In this document: piece after piece, positions 8,722-49,194 of the stretch
Position numbering within the stretch: the stretch's first letter is position 1
How the letters are laid out: the number at the start of each line of letters is the position of its first letter
DNA from: a virus
Direction: 5' to 3' (one strand)
Virus record (IMG/VR): IMGVR_UViG_3300032050_000093
Location: 1-64,000 of that record
Length of the DNA: 64,000 nt
Notes under the pieces: generated by a model
The model's input: only the letters and a program-made list of their open reading frames with translations
Databases searched by the model: none
What the model was told of the DNA's origin: nothing
Made by a program: the position numbers and the translations under genes

Positions 8722-8727
8722 TTAAAT

Positions 8728-30757: not shown

Positions 30758-30774
30758 TAAACTTTAGAAGTTTA
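30758..30774 (-). terminator. Hairpin overlapping the end of the phosphoesterase gene
   Basis: TAAACTT-TAG-AAGTTTA is a perfect 7-bp stem with a 3-nt loop that overlaps the stop codon of the phosphoesterase gene. In the transcribed direction it is followed by a T-rich run (TTTAATTTTAAAATATT). It may be a weak terminator before the ring/muzzle operon. Confidence 0.4.
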
Positions 30775-32019: not shown

Positions 32020-32050
32020 TTAAAAACAAACCCTCCCTAGAAAAGGAGGG
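32020..32050 (-). terminator. Rho-independent terminator after the 101-aa gene
   Basis: CCCTCC-CTAGAAAA-GGAGGG at 32031-32050 forms a 6-7 bp GC-rich stem. Read on the minus strand it is followed by TTTGTTTTTA, a classic intrinsic terminator. It closes the adhesin/glycan unit and separates it from the phosphoesterase gene. Confidence 0.8.
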
Positions 32051-32096
32051 TGTAGATTAGTCGAAGAAAACCAACTAAACTCCGACATTTTTAATA

Positions 32097-32402
32097 TTAT
32101 TGATTTGCAAGGCAATTAATCTTTTCAATTATTATTTCAAGAACTCGAAATAAAGTTTTTTGATCAGGTGCTAAAAAATTAGTACCCCCACATGCTGCTA
32201 ATAATTTACTTACATCTAATTCTTCTAAGTTTAAACTATCTTTAACAGCACAATAATCTACAGCAAGTTTATAAACAACATCAGTTATGGTGTCACCTGT
32301 ACAAAGTGAAAGACAGGGTATATCAGGACCTTGCCAAATAACACAATTTGATGATATAGAATTACAGGTTTCTTTAGCTAAATTTGAATTTGAAGGCAGC
32401 AT
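32097..32402 (-). CDS. Solitary Cys module of the adhesin array, 101 aa
   Basis: The sequence follows the pattern CNSISSNCVIWQG...CLSLCTGDTITDVVYKLA, with a Leu-rich helical end (FRVLEIIIEKINCL). This matches the N-terminal module of three array proteins (for example CEQLYLSNCIIF...SVTDLLLKLLEKL at 48.9 kb, and related segments at 45.5 and 38.7 kb). Here the module stands alone, without a Thr/Ser stalk or C-terminal head. It may be an assembly adaptor, a small capping subunit, or the remnant of a larger adhesin after recombination. The intrinsic terminator lies about 50 bp past its stop codon. Function unknown. Confidence 0.7.
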   Translation of the reverse strand: MLPSNSNLAKETCNSISSNCVIWQGPDIPCLSLCTGDTITDVVYKLAVDYCAVKDSLNLEELDVSKLLAACGGTNFLAPDQKTLFRVLEIIIEKINCLANQ

Positions 32403-32506: not shown

Positions 32507-33280
32507 TTACCCAATTCTATTTAAATCTAAATCAACAGATGGATCCCATGTTTGGAAACAATTGTGAACATATGACATAAAAGGATTGTATCTAAGATAA
32601 TGATGCGTCATACAACTTAGTAACATTTGACGTGTTTCATCAGGTTTTTTTATAGCAGATAAAATTTTTAAACAATCTTCAATTCCATTAAAATAATGAA
32701 TATTTGTAATTTTTTTTTCATTCTCAAAAGGAAACCAACCATTTAATTTTAAATAATATTTTTTATTTCCAATATTAAAACAATCTTCAAAATGTAAATT
32801 ATTTTCTTTTATCCATTGTCCAACAGATACATCTTCAGGTCCCCAGTTATTATTAATCATAGGGTTAGCTTGTTTTATTAATTGAGGGGATATAAAATAT
32901 CCTGCACCACCTGATGGAAAAACAAGAGTTGGTTCTTTTGGATAAACACCATGCATTTTTAACCCATAAACACAATTTTTATCAAGAAATTCAATTATAA
33001 AATTGAACATTTTAATATTTAATATTGCATCATCATCAATAAATACAAGCCAATCATATTCATGAAATTCATTAGTATTTTTAACTAAATTTATTAAAGT
33101 AACTGTTTTTTCTTCAGCACTATAATAATGAGTTTTTTCAGAACCTGATATTTCAGGGTATTTTCCAGTTAAAATATCTGTAAGACAAACATAGTCTTGG
33201 TCTTTTAACCAAGTGTCAACACAAATTTTAACTCTATCAATATTTACACTAGATGTTTTTAAAATAATTTTATATCTCAT
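32507..33280 (-). CDS. Fringe/GT31-like glycosyltransferase, 257 aa
   Basis: A GT-A type glycosyltransferase. WLVFIDDDAI (D82-D83-D84) is the metal/nucleotide-sugar binding motif in its usual hydrophobic setting. GGAGYFIS (124-131) and GPEDVSVG (147-154) match the Fringe/beta-1,3-galactosyltransferase (GT31) layout, where a GGAG segment is followed by a conserved acidic P-(D/E)-D motif. Length is near that of a bare catalytic domain, with no membrane anchor, so it would act in the cytoplasm. It is the last gene of a four-gene glycan cassette, 3 bp from the methyltransferase gene, directly downstream of the Thr/Ser-rich adhesin genes. Glycosylation of those stalks is my inference. The sugar specificity is unknown. 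Confidence 0.8.
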   Translation of the reverse strand: MRYKIILKTSSVNIDRVKICVDTWLKDQDYVCLTDILTGKYPEISGSEKTHYYSAEEKTVTLINLVKNTNEFHEYDWLVFIDDDAILNIKMFNFIIEFLDKNCVYGLKMHGVYPKEPTLVFPSGGAGYFISPQLIKQANPMINNNWGPEDVSVGQWIKENNLHFEDCFNIGNKKYYLKLNGWFPFENEKKITNIHYFNGIEDCLKILSAIKKPDETRQMLLSCMTHHYLRYNPFMSYVHNCFQTWDPSVDLDLNRIG

Positions 33281-33283
33281 TTA

Positions 33284-33904
33284 TTAACTTTTTGACCAAG
33301 CTTCCCAAACAAAATCATATTTATATTTTATATTAAATCCATTTTCTATTAATCCATTTTGAATTAATTGTCTTTTTTCTATTGCATTTTCAATTCCTAA
33401 ATGAAATTGAATTTGAATATTTTTAAATTTATTAATTACTTTTGTTTTTAACATATAATCTAATAATAAATACTCGTCTCCTTCAATATTTATTTGAAGA
33501 AGATCAATCATATCTATAGTATAATCTTCTAATATTGAATCTATTGTTTTAAACTGTACATTTATTTTTTCTGATTCATTTTCCAAATTTGAAGATGACG
33601 CATCTCCGTTTAAATATATTATACCATTTTTATTTTCAATTCCAATAGCTACAGGAATTATTTTAACTTTGTTATTATGTTTAAACTTTGAAATCATTTG
33701 ATCATAAAATAAAGGAATAGGTTCAACAATATAAACATAAGGATTAAACTTATTAATTATTTTTTCAGCCCAAACACCTACAAATCCTCCAATATCCATA
33801 ACTTTTGATTCTTCGTTTAAATCATAATTTAAAATGTAAGTTAAATCTCCATAATCAGAAAACCATCGTTGTACTTCTTCTGGGTGTAAATATAAATTTG
33901 CCAT
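33284..33904 (-). CDS. FkbM-family SAM methyltransferase, 206 aa
   Basis: Contains the SAM-binding glycine loop VMDIGGFVGVWA (DIGGFVGVW at 37-45), the ribose-binding acidic end of beta-2 (YIVEPIP, E61) and the late FkbM segment LLQINIEGDEYLLL (about 135-148), which is usually IDVEG in this family. FkbM enzymes O-methylate sugars or small molecules. Here it lies 5 bp downstream of a fucosyltransferase-like gene and 3 bp upstream of a Fringe-like gene, so methylation of a sugar in the same glycan is the natural reading. Fucose O-methylation would be a specific, testable case. Confidence 0.8.
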   Translation of the reverse strand: MANLYLHPEEVQRWFSDYGDLTYILNYDLNEESKVMDIGGFVGVWAEKIINKFNPYVYIVEPIPLFYDQMISKFKHNNKVKIIPVAIGIENKNGIIYLNGDASSSNLENESEKINVQFKTIDSILEDYTIDMIDLLQINIEGDEYLLLDYMLKTKVINKFKNIQIQFHLGIENAIEKRQLIQNGLIENGFNIKYKYDFVWEAWSKS

Positions 33905-33909
33905 TATAA

Positions 33910-34692
33910 TTAATCTTTAGAATATATATATCCATTTTTATACAATGTTTCATGTATAATCCAATTTTTACAATATATTTCATCCCAGTTTTTTGGTCCA
34001 TTAGGACCATACCAGGTTTTAGGAGCAATAACAATTTTATTTTTATTTTTAGATAAATACGCTCCCCACCAACTAAAAGATGAATTTGATATTACAAAAT
34101 GATGACATAGTGATAGTATCCATAAATCTTCATAAGATTTATAACCTTCAGAATATATTGCTCCTTCAATATTTAAATTTTTTTTACACCATTCTATATC
34201 ATCACTAACAATTAAAATTTGATTATTAGGAACATGTTTAATTGCTTCTAAAATATATTCTTTAGACAAAGTTGGATGAATATCTGGATAACTTAAATAG
34301 TCCCCTCTTCTCACATGAATAGCAGTTATTTCTTTAACAAAAATAATAGGAAGTTCTAGTTTTATTTTATTGATAAATTCTATAGGAGGATAAAATAAAT
34401 CTTTTATTTCATTAGAATATTTATTAAAATAATTTTCACTTTGAAAATAACCAGTATATAAGGTATGCGTATTATCAGAAGGTATTTCTAAATTATAATT
34501 TTTATTATCAACATAATCATCTATAAAAATGAAATCTTTAAATATTGTATTAACATATTCATTTGAAAAATGCGATTTATATAAATAAAGTTCTTTACCA
34601 TATTCTTTTGCTTTAGCATATGCGTTAGCAACCATAAATAAATTATTACCCAATCTTCCTGCAACTATTGGTAATATATAATCAATTTTCAT
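33910..34692 (-). CDS. GT11 alpha-1,2-fucosyltransferase-like enzyme, 260 aa
   Basis: Strong match to family GT11. The N-terminus has GRLGNNLFM (12-20), the donor-site motif HVRRGDY lies at 126-132, and SNSSFSWWGAYL at 202-213 is the conserved C-terminal motif. These enzymes transfer L-fucose from GDP-fucose to a galactose on a growing glycan. It is soluble, so it acts in the cytoplasm on host-derived GDP-fucose, a sugar many Bacteroidota make. The ATG overlaps the end of the upstream glycosyltransferase gene by 11 bp, so the two are coupled. The acceptor is unknown. I suggest a glycan built on the adhesin stalks. Confidence 0.85.
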   Translation of the reverse strand: MKIDYILPIVAGRLGNNLFMVANAYAKAKEYGKELYLYKSHFSNEYVNTIFKDFIFIDDYVDNKNYNLEIPSDNTHTLYTGYFQSENYFNKYSNEIKDLFYPPIEFINKIKLELPIIFVKEITAIHVRRGDYLSYPDIHPTLSKEYILEAIKHVPNNQILIVSDDIEWCKKNLNIEGAIYSEGYKSYEDLWILSLCHHFVISNSSFSWWGAYLSKNKNKIVIAPKTWYGPNGPKNWDEIYCKNWIIHETLYKNGYIYSKD

Positions 34693-35593
34693 GTTTTATA
34701 GCAAGTATTTCTTTTACATAATTATATGAGCAAAAATTATTATTATATGATTCTAATTTTACATCGTAAGGTTTTGAATTCATATATGCAGCTTTATAAA
34801 ATAAATCTTTTCTATCATCTGTCACACCTGCATTGTGATAAATAGGAGCTTGACTCCATCTAAACATTGGATCAGTTGCCCAACAAAAATCTAATCTTTT
34901 ATCTACTTTAGTTTCATTTCCAAACAACCACGCATTCCATAATAATGACCACATACCTGCTGTCCATTTTTGAATAGCATATCCTTCACCTTTCCATAAT
35001 GGTTCCTCATTACAAAAATGTGCATATAGTTTAATTGAATCTTTTTCTACTTTATCCCAATATTCAAATGTTGTATTTTTTACAATATGTTGAGCACCAC
35101 CTGAATCTGCATTTCTTTCTTTTGGAATGCTTGGATCAATTCCTATTACATCACACATTTTAAGATAAACATCTTCTCCTTTTGTAAGAATATATTGAGT
35201 GCCTATGTATCCTACAGTATCGCTTAGATACCAGATATTATCTTTTTCCATGTCGCTAAAATCTACTGGACGTGTAAATATAATATCACAATCATGTAAA
35301 AAAAGAACTTCTTTTTCTAATTCAGGATACGCTTTTAGATGTTGTTTCATCATGTTAAAGTATATCGATGGGATATACGTTTGATTTTCACGCGTATCTT
35401 TATAAAAAAAGAAGTTTACAGTATTATATTTATTTTGAAGATCAAGCCATTCGGCTGGAGGGATATCCCCATGATATGCACATAAAATATGCATATCATT
35501 TGGATTAATATTGTTTTTAATAAAGTTATTGATCATCACCTCTATTTGCCATGTATAATATGGAATAGCAGGTTGAGCACATACAAATTTCAT
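34682..35593 (-). CDS. DxD glycosyltransferase, first gene of the glycan cassette, 303 aa
   Basis: VLFLHDCDIIF (D101-C-D103) is a glycosyltransferase DxD motif after a hydrophobic strand. The start (AQPAIPYYTWQIEVMINNF), a later WTAGMWSLLWNAW segment and a C-terminal IYHNAGV are all consistent with a GT-A enzyme. The pattern loosely recalls eukaryotic peptidyl-hydroxyproline/serine O-glycosyltransferases and their phage relatives, which would make it the enzyme that puts the first sugar on Ser/Thr. That resemblance is from memory and uncertain. It lies about 40 bp downstream of a Thr/Ser-rich adhesin gene and overlaps the fucosyltransferase-like gene. Confidence 0.75.
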   Translation of the reverse strand: MKFVCAQPAIPYYTWQIEVMINNFIKNNINPNDMHILCAYHGDIPPAEWLDLQNKYNTVNFFFYKDTRENQTYIPSIYFNMMKQHLKAYPELEKEVLFLHDCDIIFTRPVDFSDMEKDNIWYLSDTVGYIGTQYILTKGEDVYLKMCDVIGIDPSIPKERNADSGGAQHIVKNTTFEYWDKVEKDSIKLYAHFCNEEPLWKGEGYAIQKWTAGMWSLLWNAWLFGNETKVDKRLDFCWATDPMFRWSQAPIYHNAGVTDDRKDLFYKAAYMNSKPYDVKLESYNNNFCSYNYVKEILAIKHEN

Positions 35594-35633
35594 AAATGTT
35601 GGTTTTAACGTAAAATTAAATAATTATTTAATA

Positions 35634-37367
35634 TTATTGAAAGTTTTCACATGAATTTATTTGACTAATTATTAAATATTTAGTTGATGATATGTCTACA
35701 GTTTTTATAATTTCTGTTACAGGTATTCCACCTACAACTAAATTATAAATTTTACCTGATAGAATATTTACACCAGATATTAAATTTGAACTATATAATA
35801 TACTTCCATTAGTTGTGCCTGAAGGAATTGTATAATTAAAAGATACATTAGAATTAATAGGTCCTCCATTACAACTTACTTGTGAAAATGTCATTAATGA
35901 TCCTGTAATAGCAATATTGGAACCAATATTTGCATTATCAATCATAAATCTTAAACGCAAATTTTCAGATCCACTTGCTCCAGTTTTTTCAATATTAATG
36001 AATATATGTGGAGAATTACATTTTCCCAAATATATTGAATTAACAATTTTTGATAGTGGATTTAATAATTGTATATTCCACACATCATTTCCACTATTAA
36101 TTGTTAAATAACTATTTGGTACTGGAATATTTACAGGAGTTGTAGCAGAAGAATTGGTGTATAAAATACTATTATTTCCATTAACAAAATTAGAATCTGT
36201 TGGATATACTTTTGTATAATATGTAAATTGATTGGAACAACCTACTGCTATTGATTGTGATAATTCAGGAAATGCTGCCGATGCTTGCCATGTATATATT
36301 GTTGTCGTAGTTGTGGTAGATGTAGATGTAGTTGTAGATGTGCTTGTTGTAGTAGAAGGAGGTATAGTAGTAGGAGCAGGTAATCCAGAACAAGGGCAAT
36401 ATGCGTATTCTGACATACCAGATGTAACTTCATATCTTATAGTTAAATTACCATTTAAAATATAATTTATTGATGATTCATCTGTAGTACATATATATTG
36501 AGATTGACTTGGAGAAATCAATATACTTCCCCCACTTCCATTACATGGATTATAACTTCCACTTACAGTACCTGTTGATGATGTATTTCTAATTCTATAA
36601 CATTTACATACTCCAGGTGCAGCTGTACTTGTAGTTGTTGTAGGAGGTATTGTAGTAGTAGAAGTTGTAGATGTACTTGTGGTAGAAGTTGTTGATGTTG
36701 AGGTAGTAGATGTTGAGGTAGTAGATGTAGTAGTTGGAGAACAAGATCCATATGTAGAACTTAACATAGAGGCTGTTCCTAAAACAGAACTTGATGATTG
36801 CCATTGATTAGGTGTTCCTGATATTGGAGTTGGTGTATTATTATCAAGAATAGAAAATAAAGTTCCAGCTTCTAATCCAGAACTAAATTGCCATCTTAAA
36901 TTAAAAGGACTCCAATATACAAACCCAGCAGGTGAAAGATCGTAAACAGGTCTTCCAGCATAATTAGAAGGATTTTGTTTAATGTTTAAACAGTATAAAT
37001 TAGGTAAAGGAGCATACCAACAAAAACATATGCCAGCATTTGCATTTGTTGTAGTTGTTGTAAAATTAGCAGATGTTGTTGTAGATGTAGTTGTTGTTGG
37101 AGGAAGTGTTGTTGTGCTTGTACTAGTGGTCGTAGTTATCTGATATCCAATCGGATAGGTAATTTCATTATTACATTTATCACCTAGTGATTTAATTGTA
37201 ATAAAGTTAGCATTAATATCTACAAATGTTGTTATTCCATTAATTAAATCAGTTTTTGAAAAAACATCAGGAGATGCATTTCCAATATCAGGAATAATTC
37301 TAAAATTAGGCCCTAAATAAGCACCTAAAGGTTCTAATAATTGTACATAAATTTTTTTTGTTGCCAC
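35634..37367 (-). CDS. Modular tail adhesin with three Thr/Ser stalks, 577 aa
   Basis: The N-terminal 75 residues (PLGAYLGPNFRI...DLINGITTFVDI...ITIKSLGDKC) match a module shared with four other proteins of the array. Three Thr/Ser/Pro stalks follow, separated by Cys-containing domains: one beginning CFCWYAPL and one beginning CKCYRIRNT, the CxC(Y/W) module used across the array. The C-terminal 180 or so residues are a beta-rich Ile/Asn/Ser-rich domain that I cannot assign. Likely a tail fibre or surface adhesin. It is the last array gene before the glycan cassette. The stalks look mucin-like and are candidates for O-glycosylation. Confidence 0.75.
   Translation of the reverse strand: MATKKIYVQLLEPLGAYLGPNFRIIPDIGNASPDVFSKTDLINGITTFVDINANFITIKSLGDKCNNEITYPIGYQITTTTSTSTTTLPPTTTTSTTTSANFTTTTTNANAGICFCWYAPLPNLYCLNIKQNPSNYAGRPVYDLSPAGFVYWSPFNLRWQFSSGLEAGTLFSILDNNTPTPISGTPNQWQSSSSVLGTASMLSSTYGSCSPTTTSTTSTSTTSTSTTSTTSTSTTSTTTIPPTTTTSTAAPGVCKCYRIRNTSSTGTVSGSYNPCNGSGGSILISPSQSQYICTTDESSINYILNGNLTIRYEVTSGMSEYAYCPCSGLPAPTTIPPSTTTSTSTTTSTSTTTTTTIYTWQASAAFPELSQSIAVGCSNQFTYYTKVYPTDSNFVNGNNSILYTNSSATTPVNIPVPNSYLTINSGNDVWNIQLLNPLSKIVNSIYLGKCNSPHIFINIEKTGASGSENLRLRFMIDNANIGSNIAITGSLMTFSQVSCNGGPINSNVSFNYTIPSGTTNGSILYSSNLISGVNILSGKIYNLVVGGIPVTEIIKTVDISSTKYLIISQINSCENFQ
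36623..36737 (-). repeat. Thr/Ser-codon repeat (second stalk of the 577-aa adhesin)
   Basis: Imperfect tandem ACT/TCA/ACA codons encode an uninterrupted run of Thr and Ser ending in Pro-Pro-Thr. Two further tracts in the same gene lie at about 36300-36378 and 37045-37137. Confidence 0.85.
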
Positions 37368-37383
37368 TTTGATTTATTTTTTA

Positions 37384-38841
37384 TTAACAGTTGTTTGTTG
37401 GTTGAGGACACCCACCAGGACAGGATCCACTCACCTGAGTTATTGTAATGCAGTTACTATAATTTGGAATTGCAGTTCCTCCTGAAATTAACACGGAAAA
37501 ACCCCAATTCATAACAGTTGAATCTGTTCCTCCACAATATGATGCTGTAGTAGTATAATCACCAATATACCAAACACTAGGATATGATGGTTTAATATTA
37601 AATTCAATTACTGCACCAATTGTTGATGAACTTATTACAGTTGCTGTAACATACCCACATCCAGTTGAAGAATTTGTTATAGCTGCTAATTGATTTGCAA
37701 CATCAATCATTGTATTACCAGCTACTGCATTATAAATTATTTGATTACAACCTGATATATTATAGCCATCTGTTGTAAATGACATTCCTATTTTAAACTG
37801 CTTACCTGCAGTAACAGTTCCATTAAGTTGTAATCTATAACCTTTTGTACCAGATGCTTGTGCTGGAGGTATGCAACCTGGGACAACTCCTATATTTATT
37901 GTCAACCAAGCTAAAGGATTAGAATCACCAATTTGAGTTACAAGATAAGAAGGTTCAGATGGAATTATAGGCTGTGTTAATGAACATATTACTTGAGCAA
38001 CATTACTAGTACTATTAACGGTAGCTAATTGATTATTTTGACATGATGTATAATAAATAGGGCTTGTAATATTTCCAGAACATTTATTACATATATTCCA
38101 ACATTTACATGGATCTGTTGTAGTTGTAGTAGTGTAACAATCTGTATTTTGTGTACAAGATCCTGTATTAGGAGTAATATTTACGAACACTTGAGGATCT
38201 GTAGAAGTAGGTACATTTTTAGAACATACATATTTTATAGGAAAATTATTTATGAATGCTCTACTTATTGTCTCAATAATTGGGCTATTACTTGAACAAG
38301 GAATATAAGTAAAAGAAGTTGTAGGAGGGTTAGGTGTAGGATTTGCAAAATCAACATTAAAGTTTACAACATTATAACACTTACATGAAACAGTAGTAGT
38401 AGATGTAGTAGATGTAGAAGTTGATGTTGAAGTACTTGTAGAGGTAGTAGTTGTTGCAGCAATTGTAGTAGTAGAAGTACTAGTACTTGTAGATGTTGAT
38501 GTACTAGTACTAGTAGTAGTTATAGAATCTTGAACAACATCAACAATGGCTCCACAAAAATCACAAGAACATGTAAAACCATACACACGTTCATATAATG
38601 TTCTAATTATTGTATTAATATTAGGAGGACTCCCGTCTTTTTCTTTTTTGATAATAGGAACATCAATATCAAGTGTAATACATTCAGCAGGAAATGCATC
38701 TTCACATTCTGATGAATCTGTAGAAGATAGTGAATACACGTTTTGTTCAAAAGATAAATTTGTATCTTGAACAATTCTAGTGTTATTAGAACATGTACAA
38801 GGATTGCAATTACAAGGATTATATGTATTATTACATGTCAT
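37384..38841 (-). CDS. Modular Cys-rich adhesin with Thr/Ser stalk, 485 aa
   Basis: The N-terminus begins with clustered Cys (CNNTYNPCNCNPCTC). A CEDAFPAECITLDI...NINTIIRTLYERVYGF module follows, the same type found in the 128-, 277- and 101-aa proteins. After a pure Thr/Ser stalk come two CxC(Y/W) modules (CKCYNVVNF and CKCWNICNK), joined by a short TTTTTT linker, and then a beta-rich C-terminal region ending in CPGGCPQPTNNC. The many Cys suggest disulfides in the finished virion. There is no enzyme motif. Likely a fibre or adhesin subunit. Confidence 0.75.
   Translation of the reverse strand: MTCNNTYNPCNCNPCTCSNNTRIVQDTNLSFEQNVYSLSSTDSSECEDAFPAECITLDIDVPIIKKEKDGSPPNINTIIRTLYERVYGFTCSCDFCGAIVDVVQDSITTTSTSTSTSTSTSTSTTTIAATTTTSTSTSTSTSTSTTSTTTVSCKCYNVVNFNVDFANPTPNPPTTSFTYIPCSSNSPIIETISRAFINNFPIKYVCSKNVPTSTDPQVFVNITPNTGSCTQNTDCYTTTTTTDPCKCWNICNKCSGNITSPIYYTSCQNNQLATVNSTSNVAQVICSLTQPIIPSEPSYLVTQIGDSNPLAWLTINIGVVPGCIPPAQASGTKGYRLQLNGTVTAGKQFKIGMSFTTDGYNISGCNQIIYNAVAGNTMIDVANQLAAITNSSTGCGYVTATVISSSTIGAVIEFNIKPSYPSVWYIGDYTTTASYCGGTDSTVMNWGFSVLISGGTAIPNYSNCITITQVSGSCPGGCPQPTNNC
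38392..38522 (-). repeat. Thr/Ser-codon repeat (stalk of the 485-aa adhesin)
   Basis: Alternating Ser and Thr codons in short hexanucleotide-like units, broken only by an Ile-Ala-Ala turn. Confidence 0.85.
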
Positions 38842-38853
38842 AAAAATTTTTAT

Positions 38854-39909
38854 TTAACAAGTTGGACAACTAGAACTATTTGATGGTGCAATTGTTACAA
38901 AACTATCAGGTGATGTTGGTAAATTCCTTGAACATATATATACTGGTGTTCCAATAGAAACAGTTGAATTTGTAACTGTTCCTGAACAATTTGTATATGT
39001 AAATGGTGATGGACTAGGTGTAACAGATACTGTTTGACTACTATTACACCAATACATTTCTGTGACAGATCCACCAGCACCAGCACCACTATAATCACCA
39101 CCTCTTGTTATAATTAAATTTGACCCACTAACTGTTGAGCTACCACCTTGTTCAGCTACACCATCATTTATATAATATGGATTATTTTGTAAAATATTTT
39201 TAATTTCATTTAAAATACAAGTATGAGATGTACATGCCCCCACAGTATAGCTAAATCCTATCATACTTCCACAATACCAAGTGTTACTACCATTGATTCC
39301 ACCACCACCATCAATAAGATAAGCTGGTTGTATACTAAAATTTAGAACATCTCCTGTGACAAAAGTACCATTTAAAGTTATTGTTAATGTTTTATAAAAT
39401 CCTGTTGTACTATCGAGTGAAGAAAGTGATGTTGTTACAGATTTAGATGGTGATGGATTAACAGAAGAATTATTAAAATTATTTATTATAGAATAGCATG
39501 TACATGGTGGTTGAGTTGTAGTACTTGTCGTTGTACTTGTTGAAGTTGATGTAGATGTACTAGTTGATGTAGATGTACTGGTTGATGTGCTAGTAGTTGA
39601 TGTAGTAGACGTACTAGTTGAAGTAGATGTTGAGGTAGAAGTAGATGTTGAAGTAGATGTTGTCGTTGGAGGTGGTGGAGGAGGTATTAAATCATAAATT
39701 TTAACAAATGGATTCTCACAATCATTACACATTGCCCCTGTTGATCTAACATATATTTTTGTTGCACTCCAATTAACTTGAATTAAAACACCATCAATAA
39801 GTTGTTGTCTTGTAACTTTATACGGAATAGTTAATCCAAAATTATCAGATAATATAAAATTAGGACCTAATCCTGCACCTAATGGTGATATTTTAAAAAG
39901 AATAAACAT
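38854..39909 (-). CDS. Modular adhesin: docking module, Thr/Ser stalk, CxCY head, 351 aa
   Basis: The simplest full example of the array plan. The N-terminal module (PLGAGLGPNFILS...QLIDGVLIQVNW...IYVRSTGAMC) covers residues 9-70. PPPPPTT leads into one of the longest Thr/Ser stalks here (about 50 residues), followed by a single head beginning CTCYSIINNFNN and ending TPVYICSRNLPTSPDSFVTI. The head has an inserted beta-rich segment of about 100 residues compared with the shortest copies. Both the head and docking module align by eye with the 629-aa protein encoded next. Likely a tail fibre or adhesin. Confidence 0.75.
   Translation of the reverse strand: MFILFKISPLGAGLGPNFILSDNFGLTIPYKVTRQQLIDGVLIQVNWSATKIYVRSTGAMCNDCENPFVKIYDLIPPPPPPTTTSTSTSTSTSTSTSTSTSTTSTTSTSTSTSTSTSTSTSTSTSTTTSTTTQPPCTCYSIINNFNNSSVNPSPSKSVTTSLSSLDSTTGFYKTLTITLNGTFVTGDVLNFSIQPAYLIDGGGGINGSNTWYCGSMIGFSYTVGACTSHTCILNEIKNILQNNPYYINDGVAEQGGSSTVSGSNLIITRGGDYSGAGAGGSVTEMYWCNSSQTVSVTPSPSPFTYTNCSGTVTNSTVSIGTPVYICSRNLPTSPDSFVTIAPSNSSSCPTC
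39514..39668 (-). repeat. Thr/Ser-codon repeat (stalk of the 351-aa adhesin)
   Basis: About 50 consecutive Thr/Ser codons, mostly alternating. The DNA repeats short units such as GTTGATGTAGATGTACTA (plus strand), which makes length change by slippage or recombination likely. Confidence 0.85.
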
Positions 39910-39929
39910 TTTTTAATTAGTTAAAAATA

Positions 39930-41819: not shown

Positions 41820-41836
41820 TCTAAATTTATTATATT

Positions 41837-42973
41837 TTAACAACTAGTTCCATCACAATCACAGAAACCATTATTTAAACAGTATAGAAGTATGCTTACT
41901 TGGTCACCACTATTAATATCAACATCTATAATATCTATAACAGGAGCAAGATTAAGTGCATTAAGACACACACCATCGTATTCTACATAATTGGAAGGTA
42001 CAGTAAAACTTCCTGAAGGAGTACCAACTCTTACTTTTGCATATACACAAGTTAAATTAGCATTTCTAAAACTTATACTTACTGCAAGATCAAATAAACC
42101 ATTTCCTTTAGATGTTGCAGATACACCAGTTTTACGCCCACTTTGAGTTGATGCTAAAGGATAGTTTGATTCACAACCATCATTATTAAATTGACCACAC
42201 CCAGTACTACTAAATTGTAATGGACTTATTGAATTTCCTTGTACAGTAACTCCATTTATGTTAGGACATGTACCACCAGCTCCAGATGTACATCCACCAA
42301 TAAGCTGATTCATTATATTACATGTTAAATTACTTACTGTTTTTTGGTTGTTACATGCTGCGTTTTTAGTATATGGGAAAGGAGCACTTGATCCAGACCC
42401 ACCACCTGTACATAGTGTTGTAGCTCTTATATGTGTCACATTAGCTGGAAGACTAGACAAAGAAACAATGTTAGGTGATGTACAAGGATCTGGGCTAAAG
42501 TCACTAAATGGTCCACCTGCACCAGTTGTTGAATATCCTATTCTTAGTCCACTACATGAAGGACAAGGTGAGCTAGGATAACTAATAGCTACAGAAATTG
42601 TACAGTTGGTTGAATTTTCAGTAATTCCAGTTATTGTAGGAGCACAACACGGATTTGTAGTAGTACTTGTAGTAGAAGTAGAAGTACTAGTAGAAGTGCT
42701 TGTAGACGTACTAGTACTAGTAGAAGTACTTGTGGATGTAGTAGGAGGTGCAGAAATTGTTACATTTGTAGTATTTGTACATACCCCAGTTGACTGTAAT
42801 TCTAGAGATGTTACATTATTATTTACAGTAACATCCACACCATTTGTATTTAATAATTGAGCAAGTGTTACTTGAGGAGGTGTTACAGTACCAGCTGGAG
42901 TAGTAATGACATTAAAAGTTGGTCCTACATCAGAATCAACAGGTAAATTTGTCATTTTTAAATTAACTATCAT
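41837..42973 (-). CDS. Modular adhesin with Thr/Ser stalk, 378 aa
   Basis: The N-terminal docking module (PVDSDVGPTFNVITTPAGTVTPPQVTL...LELQSTGVC) is very close to that of the 629-aa protein. A Ser/Thr stalk of about 30 residues follows. The C-terminal 260 residues begin CCAPTITGITENSTNC and contain Cys, Gly and Pro-rich beta-like sequence with no family I recognise. It differs from the other heads in the array and is a candidate receptor-binding domain. The leader before its start (CTAAATTTATTATATTTTAA on the plus strand) recurs before the 629-aa gene. Confidence 0.75.
   Translation of the reverse strand: MIVNLKMTNLPVDSDVGPTFNVITTPAGTVTPPQVTLAQLLNTNGVDVTVNNNVTSLELQSTGVCTNTTNVTISAPPTTSTSTSTSTSTSTSTSTSTSTSTTSTTTNPCCAPTITGITENSTNCTISVAISYPSSPCPSCSGLRIGYSTTGAGGPFSDFSPDPCTSPNIVSLSSLPANVTHIRATTLCTGGGSGSSAPFPYTKNAACNNQKTVSNLTCNIMNQLIGGCTSGAGGTCPNINGVTVQGNSISPLQFSSTGCGQFNNDGCESNYPLASTQSGRKTGVSATSKGNGLFDLAVSISFRNANLTCVYAKVRVGTPSGSFTVPSNYVEYDGVCLNALNLAPVIDIIDVDINSGDQVSILLYCLNNGFCDCDGTSC
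42654..42747 (-). repeat. Thr/Ser-codon repeat (stalk of the 378-aa adhesin)
   Basis: About 30 Thr/Ser codons between the docking module and the Cys-rich head. Confidence 0.8.
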
Positions 42974-42995
42974 TACTGTCTAAATTTATTATATT

Positions 42996-44822
42996 TTAAC
43001 TTGGTACACCACAAAGTTCAACAGTACCATTAGTTTGAACAATTGTGTTGTTATAAGAACATCTTGCACCTGCTAATAGTCCACCCCATGCTGTATTATC
43101 TGTAACTTCAGGAATTGGTGCACCATCATTATATTCTTCATCTATTAAATTTTGAGCTGTCCAAACTTGATTTCCTATCTTCACTGTAATATATGTTCTA
43201 CTATTTCCTATATAATGAGGTAATAATAAATTGTCATTACTTGTTGTACCATCAGGAAGTGCTTGTTCAGCAACTGTTGCAGGTCTTACTAAACGAATAG
43301 AACAACCGTTTCGCTTATTGCCAGTGTTAATCCTGATTAGATTGGTATTATTAAAAACCAGGCCACGGAACCAGGCAGTGTTAGTATCGTTATCGTTCTC
43401 CGTAGAACTCCACAAGTAACACTGGGTGCCAATGGAGAAGAATGAGCCATTGCTAGGACGGTAGCCACCAGGAACACTTGCAAAGTTTACCTCATTTGTT
43501 GCTACTACAACTGTAATTGTATCCCATAATCCATTATTAGTACCAAAAGGATTAGTACAAGTAGTTTTTAATTTTCCACCTGCAACTGCACTTTGACTAC
43601 CTATTGCATTTGGATCACAAGATGGATCTAAGTAAACTATAAGTGTATTCCAATTAGCATCACTTGGAACAACCCAAGTGTTTGGAGCACCTCCTGGTTG
43701 TGATGTATTAACTATACCACCTACATTTCTACCATCAACTACTGAAGGTATTGGTAATGTACCATTACCATATATTGCAAACCAATTATATAAATATCCA
43801 TACCCTTCATATGTCTCTCCACAAATTGCTGTTGAACAAGGATTTGTTGTTGTGCTTGTTGTAGTCGAGGTACTCGTTGATGTACTTGTGGATGTACTTG
43901 TGGATGTACTGGTTGATGTGCTAGTTGATGTTGCATTAACAGTTGCTACAATTGTTCCAAACGTACAATTTAAAGGACAATCCCCAAAAACACTACTTAT
44001 ATCTTCTACTGTTGATGTTTCTTCCCAATCATCATTTATTGCATTTTCACTTGTTGTACTTCCTAATAATACATCTCCATCAAATAAATCATATTTGTCT
44101 GAAAAAGGATTCCATACTATTTTTCCATCTGTGTAATCTGAATCAAATGTTATATAATAAGGTTTGCATCCTTCTGTATTTTCATCCGTACATTCTTCCC
44201 ATGGTAAATCAAAACATGTATCGCAAAATGAGTAGAATTGAGCTTTAAATGTATCCCCATTGTCATCCGTTGCTGTAACACATATTTTTTCTGGACATGT
44301 TAATCTTGTTACTACAGATTGAATATTTGGATTTAATACATCCCATGAATTACACTTAGGTCCTATTGGCAATTCCATATTTTTATCTAAAGTGGCAACA
44401 ATTACTGATGGACTAGCTAAATTAACTAGCACCCAATTTGTATTATTCCAATAAATTCTATATTTAATTGCACCATAATAAAAATCAAAATAAACTTTTC
44501 CATTAATGTAAGAATATGCAGAAACTATGTTTACAAATTCTACACTTGGACTTGGTCCTGTAGAAGGTATAATATTAATACACAATGTTTTAGAAGGAAC
44601 AGGATCTGGTACATTTATATCAAAATCAATATTACACGTGCCTGTAGATTTAATTGTAATTTTATTAGCATTATTGTTGCTTAATATAAAATCTTTTCCT
44701 ACTAATAATTCATCTTTTGTAGCTGTAGATGGACTTATTGTACCAGCATCAACAAATAGTTGAAAAACGTTGCTCACATCAAATCCAACTTCTTCAATTT
44801 TTATAGTAACAATAAGAGACAT
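42996..44822 (-). CDS. Adhesin with Thr/Ser stalk and C-terminal Fib_succ_major domain, 608 aa
   Basis: A divergent docking module (EVGFDVSNVFQLF...DELLVGKDFILS...ITIKSTGTC) is followed by about 200 residues with repeated small Tyr/Trp/Asp-rich units (for example YFDFYYGAIKYRIYWNN and ITFDSDYTDGKIVWNPFSDKYDLF). After the Thr/Ser stalk comes a Fib_succ_major domain (YGYLYNWFAIYG, WVVPSDANWNTLI, YLWSSTEN, SIRLVRP, KIGNQVWTAQNLI) that ends the protein. The coding DNA for the domain core (43321-43500) is clearly more GC-rich than its surroundings and differs strongly from its paralogue at the exposed positions. That is compatible with a diversified receptor-binding surface. Likely a tail adhesin. 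Confidence 0.8.
   Translation of the reverse strand: MSLIVTIKIEEVGFDVSNVFQLFVDAGTISPSTATKDELLVGKDFILSNNNANKITIKSTGTCNIDFDINVPDPVPSKTLCINIIPSTGPSPSVEFVNIVSAYSYINGKVYFDFYYGAIKYRIYWNNTNWVLVNLASPSVIVATLDKNMELPIGPKCNSWDVLNPNIQSVVTRLTCPEKICVTATDDNGDTFKAQFYSFCDTCFDLPWEECTDENTEGCKPYYITFDSDYTDGKIVWNPFSDKYDLFDGDVLLGSTTSENAINDDWEETSTVEDISSVFGDCPLNCTFGTIVATVNATSTSTSTSTSTSTSTSTSTSTSTTTSTTTNPCSTAICGETYEGYGYLYNWFAIYGNGTLPIPSVVDGRNVGGIVNTSQPGGAPNTWVVPSDANWNTLIVYLDPSCDPNAIGSQSAVAGGKLKTTCTNPFGTNNGLWDTITVVVATNEVNFASVPGGYRPSNGSFFSIGTQCYLWSSTENDNDTNTAWFRGLVFNNTNLIRINTGNKRNGCSIRLVRPATVAEQALPDGTTSNDNLLLPHYIGNSRTYITVKIGNQVWTAQNLIDEEYNDGAPIPEVTDNTAWGGLLAGARCSYNNTIVQTNGTVELCGVPS
43842..43935 (-). repeat. Thr/Ser-codon repeat (stalk of the 608-aa adhesin)
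   Basis: About 30 Thr/Ser codons. It shares a 29-base identity (43846-43874) with the stalk of the 629-aa adhesin. Confidence 0.8.
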
Positions 44823-44854
44823 TTATAATTTTTATTATAATTTTAATATATTAG

Positions 44855-45688
44855 TTATGGAGTAGGTGAAAGACCACAACCTGGACAATTACTGTAGTCA
44901 GGATTAGTTGGAAGTACTAATGATGCTACAATATGACTCATACAATCAACTGGTCCTGATGTACCACCCTGTAAAAACGGTTGTGAATTTTTCTTAACAC
45001 AAACGTATATAGGAGAAAAAAGTGTACCAGAATTAAAAAGTATTAATTCATCTACAACATTTTCTCCAAAACAGTTAATATATCTAACAGTTCCACTACA
45101 GTCATCAGGAAGACCTATAGCATAACAATCACACCCAGGAAATGGAGGTGCTGCTGTTGTTGTAGAAGTAGATGTACTAGTTGTCGTACTTGTTGTTGTA
45201 CTAGTTGAAGTACTAGTAGAAGTACTGGTTGATGTACTTGTGGATGTTGATGTTGAACTTGTACTAGTAGAAGTACTCGTACTGGTTGATGTACTAGTAG
45301 TAGTAGTTGGAGGAATAGTTGTAGTGCTTGTAGTTGTAGGAGGAGGGGGTGGTATATAATAATCAATATAACTAATTATCGCTTTAAATCTACAATCTGG
45401 AACTCTATCCCCATAATCACAACTACTTGAATCTCCAACATTTAATTTTTCTAATATTAAATTAATTATATCTTCAAGATCTGCATCACTTGGTAAACCA
45501 TAACATTCTAAAATTTCATTTTTTGGATCATCTGGGTCAACTTCTGGAAATATAATACATCTAGCATCAATTGTTTCTTCACAAGGTGGAATAAATGGAC
45601 CTGGAGGTGCAGGAACGCACGCTGTTGTCGTTGTTGTTTGATTAAAACAATCAGGACCATTTAATGAATTTAAATTATTAGATGCCAC
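44855..45688 (-). CDS. Adhesin/fibre protein with Cys module, long Thr/Ser stalk and CxCY head, 277 aa
   Basis: Residues about 35-90 are the CEETIDARCIIF...LEDIINLILEKL module also seen at 48.9, 38.7 and 32.2 kb. PPPPPTTTST leads into a stalk of some 55 Thr/Ser residues, the longest relative to protein size. A short head of the CDCYAIGLPDDCSGTVRYINC type ends with YVCVKKNSQP and CPGC. The domain order (Cys module, stalk, CxCY head) parallels the larger adhesins downstream. Function is inferred from that architecture and location. Confidence 0.75.
   Translation of the reverse strand: MASNNLNSLNGPDCFNQTTTTTACVPAPPGPFIPPCEETIDARCIIFPEVDPDDPKNEILECYGLPSDADLEDIINLILEKLNVGDSSSCDYGDRVPDCRFKAIISYIDYYIPPPPPTTTSTTTIPPTTTTSTSTSTSTSTSTSSTSTSTSTSTSTSTSTSTSTTTSTTTSTSTSTTTAAPPFPGCDCYAIGLPDDCSGTVRYINCFGENVVDELILFNSGTLFSPIYVCVKKNSQPFLQGGTSGPVDCMSHIVASLVLPTNPDYSNCPGCGLSPTP
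45151..45342 (-). repeat. Thr/Ser-codon repeat (stalk of the 277-aa protein)
   Basis: About 60 codons, nearly all Thr or Ser, the longest tract in the window. Confidence 0.85.
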
Positions 45689-45701
45689 TATTATTTAATC
45701 T

Positions 45702-46364
45702 TTAAGAATGTACTTGAATATATGTAGAAATACTTGTAATTGTTGTTTCAGTGGGTGAGCAAGAAACAACTAATCCATTTTTTAATACTGTTAAAACATA
45801 ATCTATTGCATCAGCTTTTGGTTTATCTTTTAAATATTCAAAAAGTTGACATAATAAAGTATTTCCATCAACTACTTTTTCATATATTCCTGTTTGATCT
45901 GCTCCTTCTAAATCAATTATATATTTTGAAAGTTCATCGTCATCAAAATATTTTATCATTTCATCTATACATTTTGTAAAACTATCGGGTGTACAACAAC
46001 CTTTTAAATCAACCTCAGATATATCAATAGGATCTGTACCTGTTCCAAAAATATTCTTAATATTTATAAAAGGTTCTCTAATAGTTCCATAATAGTTAAA
46101 ACAACAATTTTCTGAAATATCAAATGTTTTTAAAAAATCAATAACACTATTATCAGCAGTACTTAAGTCTCCACCTAAAACATATAAATCATCACATGAA
46201 TCACAACACACATCAGAATCATTTGGAAAAACATTATCCATATTTAAAACATCTTCAAATGTTTTATTTGGATTTTGTGTTATATACCATTCTGCATATT
46301 CAATTAAAAATATAAATGGATTTATACATGTACATGTTCCTAAATCTAAACAATTTTGTTGCAT
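45702..46364 (-). CDS. Cys-rich array protein, 220 aa
   Basis: Member of a four-gene paralogous run (45.7-48.7 kb). Shared features are an N-terminal PFIFLIEYA-type helix, a paired-Cys motif (DVCCDSCDDLYVLG), a second NCCFNYYGTI block, a GCCTPDSFTKCIDEMI block and a C-terminal VLTVLKNGLVVSCSPT segment. It is mainly helical between Cys clusters and has no stalk of its own. No known family comes to mind. The conserved spacing of CC and C pairs suggests disulfides or metal sites. Position upstream of the stalked adhesins suggests a fibre-base or baseplate role. Confidence 0.7.
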   Translation of the reverse strand: MQQNCLDLGTCTCINPFIFLIEYAEWYITQNPNKTFEDVLNMDNVFPNDSDVCCDSCDDLYVLGGDLSTADNSVIDFLKTFDISENCCFNYYGTIREPFINIKNIFGTGTDPIDISEVDLKGCCTPDSFTKCIDEMIKYFDDDELSKYIIDLEGADQTGIYEKVVDGNTLLCQLFEYLKDKPKADAIDYVLTVLKNGLVVSCSPTETTITSISTYIQVHS

Positions 46365-46374
46365 AATTTTTATT

Positions 46375-47088
46375 TTATTGGATAAGTCCTTGTTCTACTA
46401 AACTTGTTTCAACACCAGATATAAATACTTTACCATTATAACATCTTATAACAATACCTTTATCAGTAACTCTATCTAAAATAGTAGCAATACATTCATT
46501 TAAATCTACTTTAGTTATTCTAAAAAATTCTATCAATTCACATATTTTAGTTTGTTGATTAGGCGCTAAATTTTCAACAATACCTTTATCAAGTAGAAGT
46601 CCTATTGTATCAGCATTAAAACATTGGTTATTACAACCAATATCTAAAATACACTTATTAAAATCATTACAACAAGATAAATTAGAATCACAACTTGATA
46701 CAGAATTATCATGAGCATCATCTCCTTGAATAGGCATTTTTAATGGAAATGCTGAAGATGAACCAACTTGATTAATTCCAACAGCTTCCGCGTAAGTAAG
46801 CAATCTTTCTACACTTGCAAATATATTTACACAACAGTTAGTTTCATTTTGCAGATGTATATCTTTTGCCAAAACATATACTTTATACGTTTCAACACTT
46901 GCTAAAATATATTCACAATCATTGCAGCAAAAATCACAACTATTTGTAGTAAATCCTAAATCCTGTATTCTGTCAATAGTATCAAGTATAGACCAATCAT
47001 ATAATTTACTTAATTCAACAACTTTACATAAAAAATAACTAAAAGGATCAACGCATACTTTTGTTGTTGTTGTACAATTTATAAACAT
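46375..47088 (-). CDS. Cys-rich array protein with SVET repeat, 237 aa
   Basis: Paralogue of the genes on both sides. It contains CDFCCNDCEYILASVETYKVYV, then NCCVNIFASVERLLTYAEAVG, a CNDFNKCILDIGC block, two 'DKGIV' units (LLDKGIVENLA and RVTDKGIVIRC) and a C-terminal ISGVETSLVEQGL. The SVET/SVER units sit after each Cys block, as in the 286-aa protein, so the protein looks built from about three copies of a unit of 80-90 residues. Function unknown; structural by context. Confidence 0.7.
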   Translation of the reverse strand: MFINCTTTTKVCVDPFSYFLCKVVELSKLYDWSILDTIDRIQDLGFTTNSCDFCCNDCEYILASVETYKVYVLAKDIHLQNETNCCVNIFASVERLLTYAEAVGINQVGSSSAFPLKMPIQGDDAHDNSVSSCDSNLSCCNDFNKCILDIGCNNQCFNADTIGLLLDKGIVENLAPNQQTKICELIEFFRITKVDLNECIATILDRVTDKGIVIRCYNGKVFISGVETSLVEQGLIQ

Positions 47089-47123
47089 AATATTTTTTTT
47101 ACAAAATTAATAATACTTTAGTA

Positions 47124-47984
47124 TTATAGTACAGTTGTTGTAGTAGTTGTTTGTCCAAGTGCTGGTACAGCAGCGGATTCAGTAAGTCCCATCTGTTCTC
47201 CATATTTAAGCCAAGTTTCAACGCTTCCTATTACAATTTCACCATTATCTGAACAAGATATAGTAATACCTTTATCAAGTATACGATCTACAATATATGA
47301 TCTACGATTTATATTTGCTGTTTCACCTAAATATTTATCTAACAAATCAACAAGTTTACAAAGAACAAGATTATCAGTTTTTGAACAATTGTTATAAATT
47401 CCACCATATTCAATTACACCTTTATCCTGTAATCTATCAATTGATTCAGCAGCAAAACGACCTGCCGTAACCCAACAAATTAAATCATCCATACATTCAT
47501 TAAATCCATTACAACATGTCATTAATTCTTTTGATGATAAACTTGGTGTAAATGTTGAATTTAATGCTGGTACAGCAGCTAAAGGTGTTAAACCAATTTC
47601 ACTAGCGTATTTGTCTAACCATGTTTCAATAGATGCAAAAACATTACTACAACATGGTGAATCATTATTTATATAATAATTGTAATCACCCGAAAATTGT
47701 GGAGAAGCAGGTACAGCAGCACTTATTGTAAAGCCTAATCCTTCATAAAGTTTCATCATTGTTTCAACAGATGCTAAAGCATAAATACCTTCACAACTAG
47801 GACAACACATATTACAATTAGTTGTAACAATACCTTTATCAAGTATTCTATCTAATCCTTCTTCAAATAAAGATTTGTTATTAACACCAAGAGTTCCTTG
47901 ATGTGCTAATTCAAAAATGTATTCTAAAGGATGAATACATTGAACACAGGGTCCAGATGTTGTTGTTGGTGTAGAGCAAGACAT
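47124..47984 (-). CDS. Cys-rich array protein with three internal repeats, 286 aa
   Basis: The clearest repeat structure in this group. Three units each combine a DKG segment ([30 protein letters not shown]) with a S(V/I)ET segment ending GLTxxAAVPA-like ([45 protein letters not shown] and [22 protein letters not shown], each given with small variations). CNMCCPSC and CCSNVF Cys clusters lie between. The C-terminus ends in a short Thr run. I do not recognise the family. The repeats suggest an elongated or pseudo-trimeric structural protein. Confidence 0.7.
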
Positions 47985-48023
47985 AAATAAAATTTTTAAG
48001 TTTTAATAAATAAATAAATATTT

Positions 48024-48749
48024 TTAATAAATAATATCTTCTTCAAGAAGATCAAGTCCAATTCCAAATCCTCCATATGATCCTCCAGATGATCCTCCAG
48101 ATAATGAATTTATAGTTGTGGTAGTAGTAGTCATAAATCTATTTGCATAAGTTGCATAAGAAGGAACTGTCCCAATTATAGAAAATTTTCCATCACATGT
48201 TATTACTAATCCTTGACTTAAGATATAGTTAAATATAATATATAATAATTGTGGTGTATAAATTGGAGAATTTTGCGCTTCTATAATTAATTGACATATA
48301 ATTGATATATTATTTATAGATGTATATTCAATAATTCCTTGATTTAACAACAGTTCATAAAATGTTGGTCCAAGAGCATCTTGTAATATTTGAAGACATG
48401 GACTAAAATTTGTATTACATGTTCCTGTGAATCCATTATCTAAAGGTGTTTGTATACCAGCAGTTCTTCCACAACATGGAAGGTTTTCACTAGGTTGAAG
48501 ATTTGGAAATTCAACAGAAACAAAAGAACTATATGCAACATTATTACCAAAAAAATAAATATTTTCACAGTTTGGGCAAGCTACTCCACATTGTGTAGAT
48601 ACAATACCTTTATTAATAGAATTAAGTTGATAATTTAATGTAGAAGTGTTGACAATTTTACTACCATCAAATATATTAAAAACCACATTACGTTTAGTCG
48701 TAGTAGTTGTTGTACTTGTTGATGTTGTTGATGTTGTTGTTACGGGCAT
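48024..48749 (-). CDS. Cys-rich array protein with N-terminal Thr/Ser run and Gly/Ser-rich tail, 241 aa
   Basis: Begins with a Thr/Ser run (PVTTTSTTSTSTTTTTT), then NKGIVSTQCGVACPNCENIYFFG, the array's DKG-Cys pattern. Two more units follow (LLNQGIIEYTS and ILSQGLVITCDG). A second Thr run and a Gly/Ser-rich tail ending in LDLLEEDIIY close the protein. It overlaps the upstream 128-aa gene by 10 bp. That neighbour carries the other kind of N-terminal module plus a Thr/Ser stalk, so the pair may once have been one protein or may be made in fixed ratio by coupling. Function unknown. Confidence 0.7.
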   Translation of the reverse strand: MPVTTTSTTSTSTTTTTTKRNVVFNIFDGSKIVNTSTLNYQLNSINKGIVSTQCGVACPNCENIYFFGNNVAYSSFVSVEFPNLQPSENLPCCGRTAGIQTPLDNGFTGTCNTNFSPCLQILQDALGPTFYELLLNQGIIEYTSINNISIICQLIIEAQNSPIYTPQLLYIIFNYILSQGLVITCDGKFSIIGTVPSYATYANRFMTTTTTTINSLSGGSSGGSYGGFGIGLDLLEEDIIY

Positions 48750-49126
48750 ATATCACAAATTGAATATTGAGTAGTAGTTATTGTTTCAATACATGTTGTT
48801 GTAGTTGTTGGTTGTAATGTAGTAGTTGGTACGACTGTTGTTGTAGATGTCGTAGAAGTAGAAGTTGTAGATGTTGTCGTATGACATTCTGGAAATAATT
48901 TTTCTAATAATTTTAACAACAAATCTGTAACAGATGCTCCTGAATCTACACCAAAACATGCTAACCCATCATTTCCACTATCTTCAGTGTCGTCATTTTC
49001 AAATATGATGCAATTAGATAAATAAAGTTGTTCACATGGAGTACACTCAGGACATTCTGGTACACAGTAGACCTTTTTGGGTACAATCTTTGAACAATTT
49101 TCACAAACTTTGCATCTTTTTTTCAT
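48740..49126 (-). CDS. Cys-rich module with Thr/Ser stalk, 128 aa
   Basis: CxxC-rich N-terminus (CKVCENC, CVPECPECTPC), then the CEQLYLSNCIIF...GASVTDLLLKLLEKL module shared with the 277-, 485- and 101-aa proteins. A Thr/Ser stalk and a short Cys-containing end follow. There is no head domain. I place the start at the ATG 49126. A GTG at 49129 directly before it is also possible. An AT element (TAGTATATTATAATGTAAAG) lies just upstream. It is the first gene of the adhesin array. Confidence 0.65.
   Translation of the reverse strand: MKKRCKVCENCSKIVPKKVYCVPECPECTPCEQLYLSNCIIFENDDTEDSGNDGLACFGVDSGASVTDLLLKLLEKLFPECHTTTSTTSTSTTSTTTVVPTTTLQPTTTTTCIETITTTQYSICDICP
48792..48881 (-). repeat. Thr/Ser-codon repeat (stalk of the 128-aa protein)
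   Basis: About 28 codons, mostly Thr and Ser with a Val-Val-Pro break. Confidence 0.75.
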
Positions 49127-49194
49127 CACTACTTTACATTATAATATACTAAAAATTATTAACTTTTTAAAATTTATTAGTTAACAATGTTAAG

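Follow-up and report, generated by a model that had tools for sequence, protein, structure and literature searches.

Gene content of the stalk and glycan locus

We analysed a 64 kb stretch of DNA, here called the window, out of a 70,965-base IMG/VR virus record (IMGVR_UViG_3300032050_000093) from an uncultured phage. Its minus strand carries a unit flanked by genes for a papain-like peptidase (49195-50070) and an exonuclease (30772-31956). The unit encodes five proteins that are small or rich in Cys and seven stalk proteins bearing threonine/serine (Thr/Ser) tracts, and these are followed by a glycosyltransferase (GT) with a DxD motif, a GT11 fucosyltransferase-like protein, an FkbM-type methyltransferase, a Fringe-like GT, a 101-residue Cys-rich protein and an intrinsic terminator. 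Intergenic gaps range from -11 to +40 bp. An earlier note on this DNA had described four codirectional glycan genes downstream of the stalks with tiny gaps, and the positions of the open reading frames (ORFs) together with the profile matches bear this out. It had also described the cassette as closed by an intrinsic terminator; such a terminator exists, but it is placed after the additional Cys-rich gene (32097-32402) and not right behind the Fringe-like gene.

All seven stalk ORFs (St1 to St7, Table 1) carry long Thr/Ser tracts, as had been claimed: the longest pure Thr/Ser run in each is 21-51 residues, far above the maximum of 8-13 obtained in 1000 shuffles of each protein. The tracts are written in a mixture of ten Thr/Ser codons (ACT, ACA, ACC, ACG, TCT, TCA, TCC, TCG, AGT and AGC), pointing to selection on the residues themselves and to repeats that are maintained at the protein level rather than as a plain DNA microsatellite. 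A DNA-repeat artefact is ruled out by this codon mixture and by the recurrence of tracts in unrelated proteins, described below. An N-terminal domain of ~75 residues is common to five of the stalks and is also found in several sister phages. The C-terminal parts of the stalks are diverse, and only two contain a Fib_succ_major domain. These two domains are 48% identical to each other; C-type-lectin-like domains of the Fib_succ_major type are at times the targets of diversity-generating retroelements. For St4, the ATG at 41819 is a likelier start than the listed TTG. The Pfam Mucin profile (PF01456) scores 16.5 bits against a curated cut-off of 34.7, and we use 'mucin-like', of the putative virion coat, by analogy.

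The DxD glycosyltransferase

The DxD GT is a direct member of the phrog_4417 family, matching it over its full length (residues 1-300 on profile positions 1-292/293). The family, found in 74 phage records, was previously without an assigned function, and it is for this family that we propose one here. No Pfam profile matches the window enzyme, and in a Pfam scan of 43 phrog_4417 homologues none matched a glycosyltransferase family, GT8 included. Sequence searches of the PDB with the phrog_4417, GT11, Fringe-like and FkbM proteins likewise returned no useful relatives.

Its AlphaFold2 model, in contrast, has a GT-A fold over the whole chain (predicted local distance difference test, pLDDT, 94.6; predicted template modelling score, pTM, 0.92). 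The nearest structure is glycogenin, a protein-glucosylating enzyme (Z 15.1, root-mean-square deviation 3.2 with 220 residues aligned; Foldseek E 2e-6), and the other fold neighbours include the Skp1 galactosyltransferase, UGGT, LgtC, LARGE1 and pneumococcal GlyE. D101xD103 and H253xxG256...K267 are invariant in the 43 homologues, a pattern that matches the residues by which GT8-like enzymes bind metal and nucleotide. The phrog_4417 enzyme is thus a predicted GT-A transferase, whose acceptor the shared fold does not settle. It has in common with the GT8-GT24 clan (glycogenin, LgtC, UGGT, LARGE1) the whole-chain GT-A fold, the DxD and the conserved HxxG...K motif, yet differs from these enzymes in its identity to them of 8-12%, in its predicted acceptor, the Thr/Ser tracts, and in the lack of a Pfam GT8 match, because of which we describe it as working like a GT8 enzyme rather than file it as one. 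A scan of genome contigs for bacterial or prophage copies of phrog_4417 confirmed none.

Association of the DxD glycosyltransferase with Thr/Ser tracts

Eighty IMG/VR loci were fetched by the presence of phrog_4417 alone. The gene directly upstream carries a strong tract in 49 of 77 loci, and one of the three upstream genes carries a tract in 61 of 77, compared with none of the 351 genes in the five positions downstream. Once their tracts are masked, these upstream proteins sort into 12 clusters unrelated in sequence, which leaves the tract as the feature they have in common. The same arrangement recurs in cultured phages, and in those of Gram-positive hosts it is capsid or tail genes with Thr tails that precede the GT. 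A homologue of the GT lies behind a major tail gene with an in-frame C-terminal Thr tract in phiFL1A, behind a major tail gene with a short in-frame tract in Staphylococcus phage RQ1 and Arcanobacterium phage TPWB06. In Lactobacillus phage iLp84 it is preceded by an ORF with a tract, and Chryseobacterium phage MA9V-3, whose GT homologue is 46% identical, has two tract genes close to it. In Enterococcus phages 9183 and 140 it lies behind the capsid gene, which is followed by a Thr tract in a shifted frame. The association of tracts with glycan genes that the earlier note had drawn from a single locus therefore extends, for the DxD GT, to many unrelated phages. Since the GT sits just behind tract proteins in so many of them, it probably sugar-coats the Thr/Ser tracts on the virus particle.

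Some of these tracts raise the question of frameshifting. In the Enterococcus phages (9183, locus L212 4790-4890; 140, locus L218 4680-4820) the Thr tract lies in another frame right after the stop codon of the major capsid gene, and the capsid/tract junction of 9183, CCAAAAGGGTAG, is a possible programmed frameshift site that would give a Thr tail to some capsid subunits. In RQ1 (L215 4620-4940) and TPWB06 (L217 4720-4930) TTTTTTTP, encoded up to ACT-CCC-TAA, forms the end of the major tail protein, and beyond it a long Thr tract is read in a different frame. This makes a +1 frameshift possible at CCC-T, a site that both phages have. The candidate sites are CCC-TAA and CCAAAAGGG.

We also compared the locus among relatives of the window phage. 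Sister phages were gathered by portal similarity (≥59%) rather than by their glycan genes, and to them were added four fragments of this genome type that carry the GT and were found through it; a tract was counted as at least 20 Thr/Ser in 30 residues. All nine records that have the DxD GT also have tract proteins, which in most cases lie just upstream of the GT. The 12 GT-less records in which the tail locus was read have none; four of these loci are complete from portal to exonuclease, and the others are cut short by the end of the record or of the fetched stretch. A strict DNA pattern likewise found no tract in a set of 35 records without the GT, a set that includes many short fragments. 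The earlier note had suggested co-variation in related phages as a check, and within this family tracts and DxD GT are indeed found together, neither being kept without the other. Three of the four complete GT-less sisters were scanned and have no GT or methyltransferase between portal and exonuclease, and a tally pooled over the scanned sisters, rather than assigned to each, gives Fn3, Peptidase_S74 and SprB matches at this locus. Such matches are typical of tail fibres. Because the GT-less sisters show fibre-type matches and no GT or methyltransferase there, the stalk array and cassette appear to replace a tail-fibre module.

Accessory enzymes are exchanged between related phages

Of the four glycan genes, the three behind the DxD GT have family assignments above curated cut-offs, with GT11 membership indicated by a PF01531 score over the curated cut-off together with an HxRRGDY motif. 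These three are not constant. Behind the same GT, sister phage G017 has a methyltransferase and a GT2, G018 and G019 a GT34-like gene, G020 and G021 GT2/GT7-like genes, G022 a GT2, an FkbM-like and a GT7-like gene, and G003 a GT6 and an FkbM-like gene, while in G032 no other GT or methyltransferase was recognised in the locus. The G003 cassette (L179 10534-11874) also holds, between its GT6 and FkbM-like genes, a gene of 447 residues for which no family was recognised. Across many loci, GTs or methyltransferases make up at least 30 of 71 genes at positions +1 to +3, compared with about 5 of 74 at control positions farther away; both counts are read off per-family tallies, the former being a lower and the latter an upper estimate.

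Judged by gene content, then, the GT11, FkbM and Fringe-like set is one of several interchangeable accessory sets, and the DxD GT is the only constant partner of the tracts. The earlier idea of a four-enzyme cassette as the partner of the stalks holds for the DxD GT, but not for the other three, which in sister phages give way to GT2, GT6, GT7, GT34-like or other methyltransferase genes. Since the set is swapped between related phages, the type of glycan displayed probably varies from phage to phage. The fucosylated and perhaps methylated glycan that had been suggested for the window phage is deduced from family names and is unproven.

Table 1. Features of the stalk and glycan unit, in the order in which the minus strand is read.
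Feature	Coordinates	Strand	Evidence
Small Cys-rich protein, C-terminal Thr/Ser tract residues 84-112	48740..49129	-	
Cys-rich paralogue 3 of 3, short N-terminal Thr/Ser tract residues 4-18	48024..48749	-	
Cys-rich paralogue 2 of 3	47124..47984	-	
Cys-rich paralogue 1 of 3	46375..47088	-	31.6% identity to 47124, E=3e-19
Cys-rich neighbour without tract	45702..46364	-	Homologue at same place in G017/G018
Stalk St7, tract residues 118-178, Cys-rich domain in common with 48740	44855..45688	-	
Stalk St6, Fib_succ_major domain, tract residues 298-326, shared N-domain	42996..44822	-	PF09603 E=8e-28
Stalk St5, tract residues 78-106, shared N-domain	41837..42973	-	Residue-run count
Stalk St4, Fib_succ_major domain, tract residues 82-123 of TTG-start ORF, shared N-domain	39930..41819	-	PF09603 E=2e-20
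Stalk St3, tract residues 82-132, shared N-domain	38854..39909	-	Residue-run count
Stalk St2, Cys-rich, tract residues 108-152	37384..38841	-	Residue-run count
Stalk St1, three tracts (residues 78-99, 212-248, 333-356), shared N-domain	35634..37367	-	Residue-run count
phrog_4417-family DxD glycosyltransferase, proposed to initiate Ser/Thr O-glycosylation	34682..35593	-	phrog_4417 E=3e-73
GT11 fucosyltransferase-like, variable accessory	33910..34692	-	PF01531 E=4e-33, 115 bits against cut-off 23.9; HVRRGDY motif at residue 126
FkbM-type methyltransferase, variable accessory	33284..33904	-	PF05050 E=1e-7, 32.8 bits against curated cut-off 22.7
Fringe/GT31-like GT, variable accessory	32507..33280	-	PF02434 E=2e-7, 30.8 bits against curated cut-off 21; DDD motif at residue 82
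Small Cys-rich protein, 101 aa, final gene before terminator	32097..32402	-	Homologues in sister phages with and without the GT
Intrinsic terminator closing the unit	32030..32051 (read 32051-32030)	-	9-bp stem, 5 G-C pairs, T-rich tail

Neighbouring genes and the phage

The tracts in the Cys-rich neighbours 48740 and 48024 are shorter than those of the stalks. St7 and 48740 have a domain in common (E=1e-5), and the three Cys-rich paralogues (46375-48749) have homologues in G017, G018 and G022. Gas_vesicle matches to these paralogues, along with Lamp2 and other weak Pfam matches, fall below cut-off and were set aside. Larger homologues (about 410 aa) of the 32097-32402 protein occur in GT-less sisters, and because of this the protein may be a general virion component.

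The portal, terminase and major capsid proteins of the window match crAss-like PHROGs (phrog_6547, 6681 and 11589), and these homologues indicate a crAss-like phage (Crassvirales). The portal is 22-27% identical to those of many crAss-like phages, its relatives including Cellulophaga, Flavobacterium and Bacteroides crAss-like phages. The nearest named relative of the portal (59255-62008) is that of Lbo-JY46, a phage of the cyanobacterium Leptolyngbya (31% identity over 98%), the listed gut crAss-like phages being more distant. At the other end of the window, the minus strand of 1-8727 holds an open frame with >2,900 codons that extends past the window start, beside several genes of 600-1567 residues. 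Blocks of giant-protein genes are a feature of crAss-like phages, and this region resembles such a block. Of 28 gene starts inspected, only one shows a Shine-Dalgarno-like motif; scarcity of these motifs is usual for Bacteroidota, and given this count the host may well belong to that phylum.

Proposed mechanism and alternatives

We think it likely that the unit, at the tail-fibre/adhesin locus, is an island with which the phage glycosylates its own virion, and in it the phrog_4417 enzyme would initiate O-glycosylation of the tracts. Acting as a soluble, nucleotide-sugar-dependent enzyme, it would attach the first sugar to Thr/Ser residues in the tracts of the neighbouring stalks, in the cytoplasm and before or during assembly, with the host supplying the nucleotide sugars. 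The GT11, the Fringe-like GT and the FkbM methyltransferase would then extend, cap or methylate this sugar. Densely glycosylated tracts would form stiff, protease-resistant spacers that hold out Cys-rich or Fib_succ_major heads. We infer the presence of the stalks in the virion, the O-linkage, the identity of the sugars, the order of the steps and the biological role, as well as the gains of stiffness, protease resistance and glycan variation.

Several results weigh against this proposal. The shared N-terminal domain of the stalks, in a predicted structure (pLDDT 81), has no significant fold match in the PDB, and attachment to the virion remains putative. Trees of the flanking genes are compatible with a single evolutionary switch, so the comparison of sister phages amounts to about one independent observation, and its p-value credits it with more independence than it has. 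Loci L124, L144 and L153 and Lactobacillus phage Lpa804 have the GT without a tract; in Lpa804 the GT lies among non-structural genes, with no tract by pattern. A scan starting from tracts found this GT downstream in only 3 loci, using a pattern that also catches many frames not coding Thr/Ser. Thr/Ser tracts thus exist without phrog_4417, and a tract does not predict this GT.

Both Lpa804 and the scan from tracts would fit enzymes that target something else, such as phage DNA, or host lipopolysaccharide or capsule in order to block superinfection, the tracts being unmodified flexible linkers in a shared late operon; phage GTs acting on DNA or the host surface are known. We consider this unlikely, as the GT follows differing structural genes (capsid, major tail, fibre), namely those that bear tracts, the association is one-sided (49/77 at the -1 position against 0/351 downstream), and within the phage family GT and tracts vanish together. 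It is also conceivable that the stalks are glycosylated by host enzymes, or chiefly by the accessory GTs, and that phrog_4417 acts in another step, for example extension. Bacteroidota possess a general protein O-glycosylation system, the host may well be one of them, and GlyE-type enzymes of the GT8 clan in serine-rich-repeat islands extend rather than initiate. The Bacteroidota sequon, D-(S/T)-(A/I/L/V/M/T), however, occurs only a few times in the stalks and never inside the tracts, which makes a host contribution to the tracts unlikely, contrary to a suggestion of the earlier note, and on this ground we rejected host glycosylation as the chief route. Moreover, phrog_4417 is the only constant gene where the others are swapped, and G032 has it without another recognised GT. 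We therefore regard this last alternative as improbable.

The proposed initiation of tract glycosylation by phrog_4417 has parallels in known systems. Mycobacteriophages Che8, Corndog and Myrna are reported to encode GTs that modify capsid and tail-tube proteins, O-linked near their C-termini (PMC12363180, PMC11652166 and PMC12619734, citing Freeman et al. 2023). The likeness is one of purpose, namely phage-encoded GTs for virion proteins, but the enzymes and the type of substrate are different. The Che8 GTs (gp108-110) do not adjoin the capsid gene, and the Che8 capsid and tail C-termini lack Thr/Ser tracts. Che8 gp108-110 have no sequence match to phrog_4417 or GT11, nor any hit to the phrog_4417 profile at E≤10, and we ruled out kinship on this absence of similarity. 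Streptococcal serine-rich repeat protein (SRRP) islands encode an adhesin with a Ser/Thr-rich stalk, adjacent core GTs and variable accessory GTs, with glycosylation in the cytoplasm (PMC7661464). The window resembles them in having core and variable accessory GTs beside a Ser/Thr-rich stalk, and the SRRP enzyme GlyE is among the fold neighbours of the DxD GT. SRRP islands differ in serving a bacterial surface protein, with accessory Sec export and a GtfA/GtfB initiator; neither accessory Sec genes nor GtfA/GtfB are among the Pfam matches of the unit's genes. A literature search, mostly outside subscription papers, found no paper on polythreonine tracts together with a phage GT.

Implications

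To our knowledge, phage virion glycosylation is documented mainly in a few mycobacteriophages. We lean, if only slightly, towards a broader view in which phrog_4417 would be a widespread family of polypeptide O-glycosyltransferases in phages, hitherto overlooked and specialised for the Thr/Ser tracts of virion proteins, acting on capsid, tail tube or fibre in phages of Bacteroidota, Bacillota and Actinomycetota, with some tracts perhaps added by frameshifting. In Bacteroidota phages, a fixed initiator with interchangeable GT and methyltransferase caps would generate 'glycotypes' akin to bacterial serotypes. If this is correct, virion glycoproteins would be predictable from sequence in many phages, including crAss-like relatives in environmental metagenomes and phages cultured on lactobacilli, enterococci and staphylococci. 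An unannotated protein family would also gain a function, the simple-sequence Thr tracts seen in structural proteins of phages would be explained, and one could ask how the glycans affect the stability of particles, shielding from antibodies and adsorption mediated by glycans.

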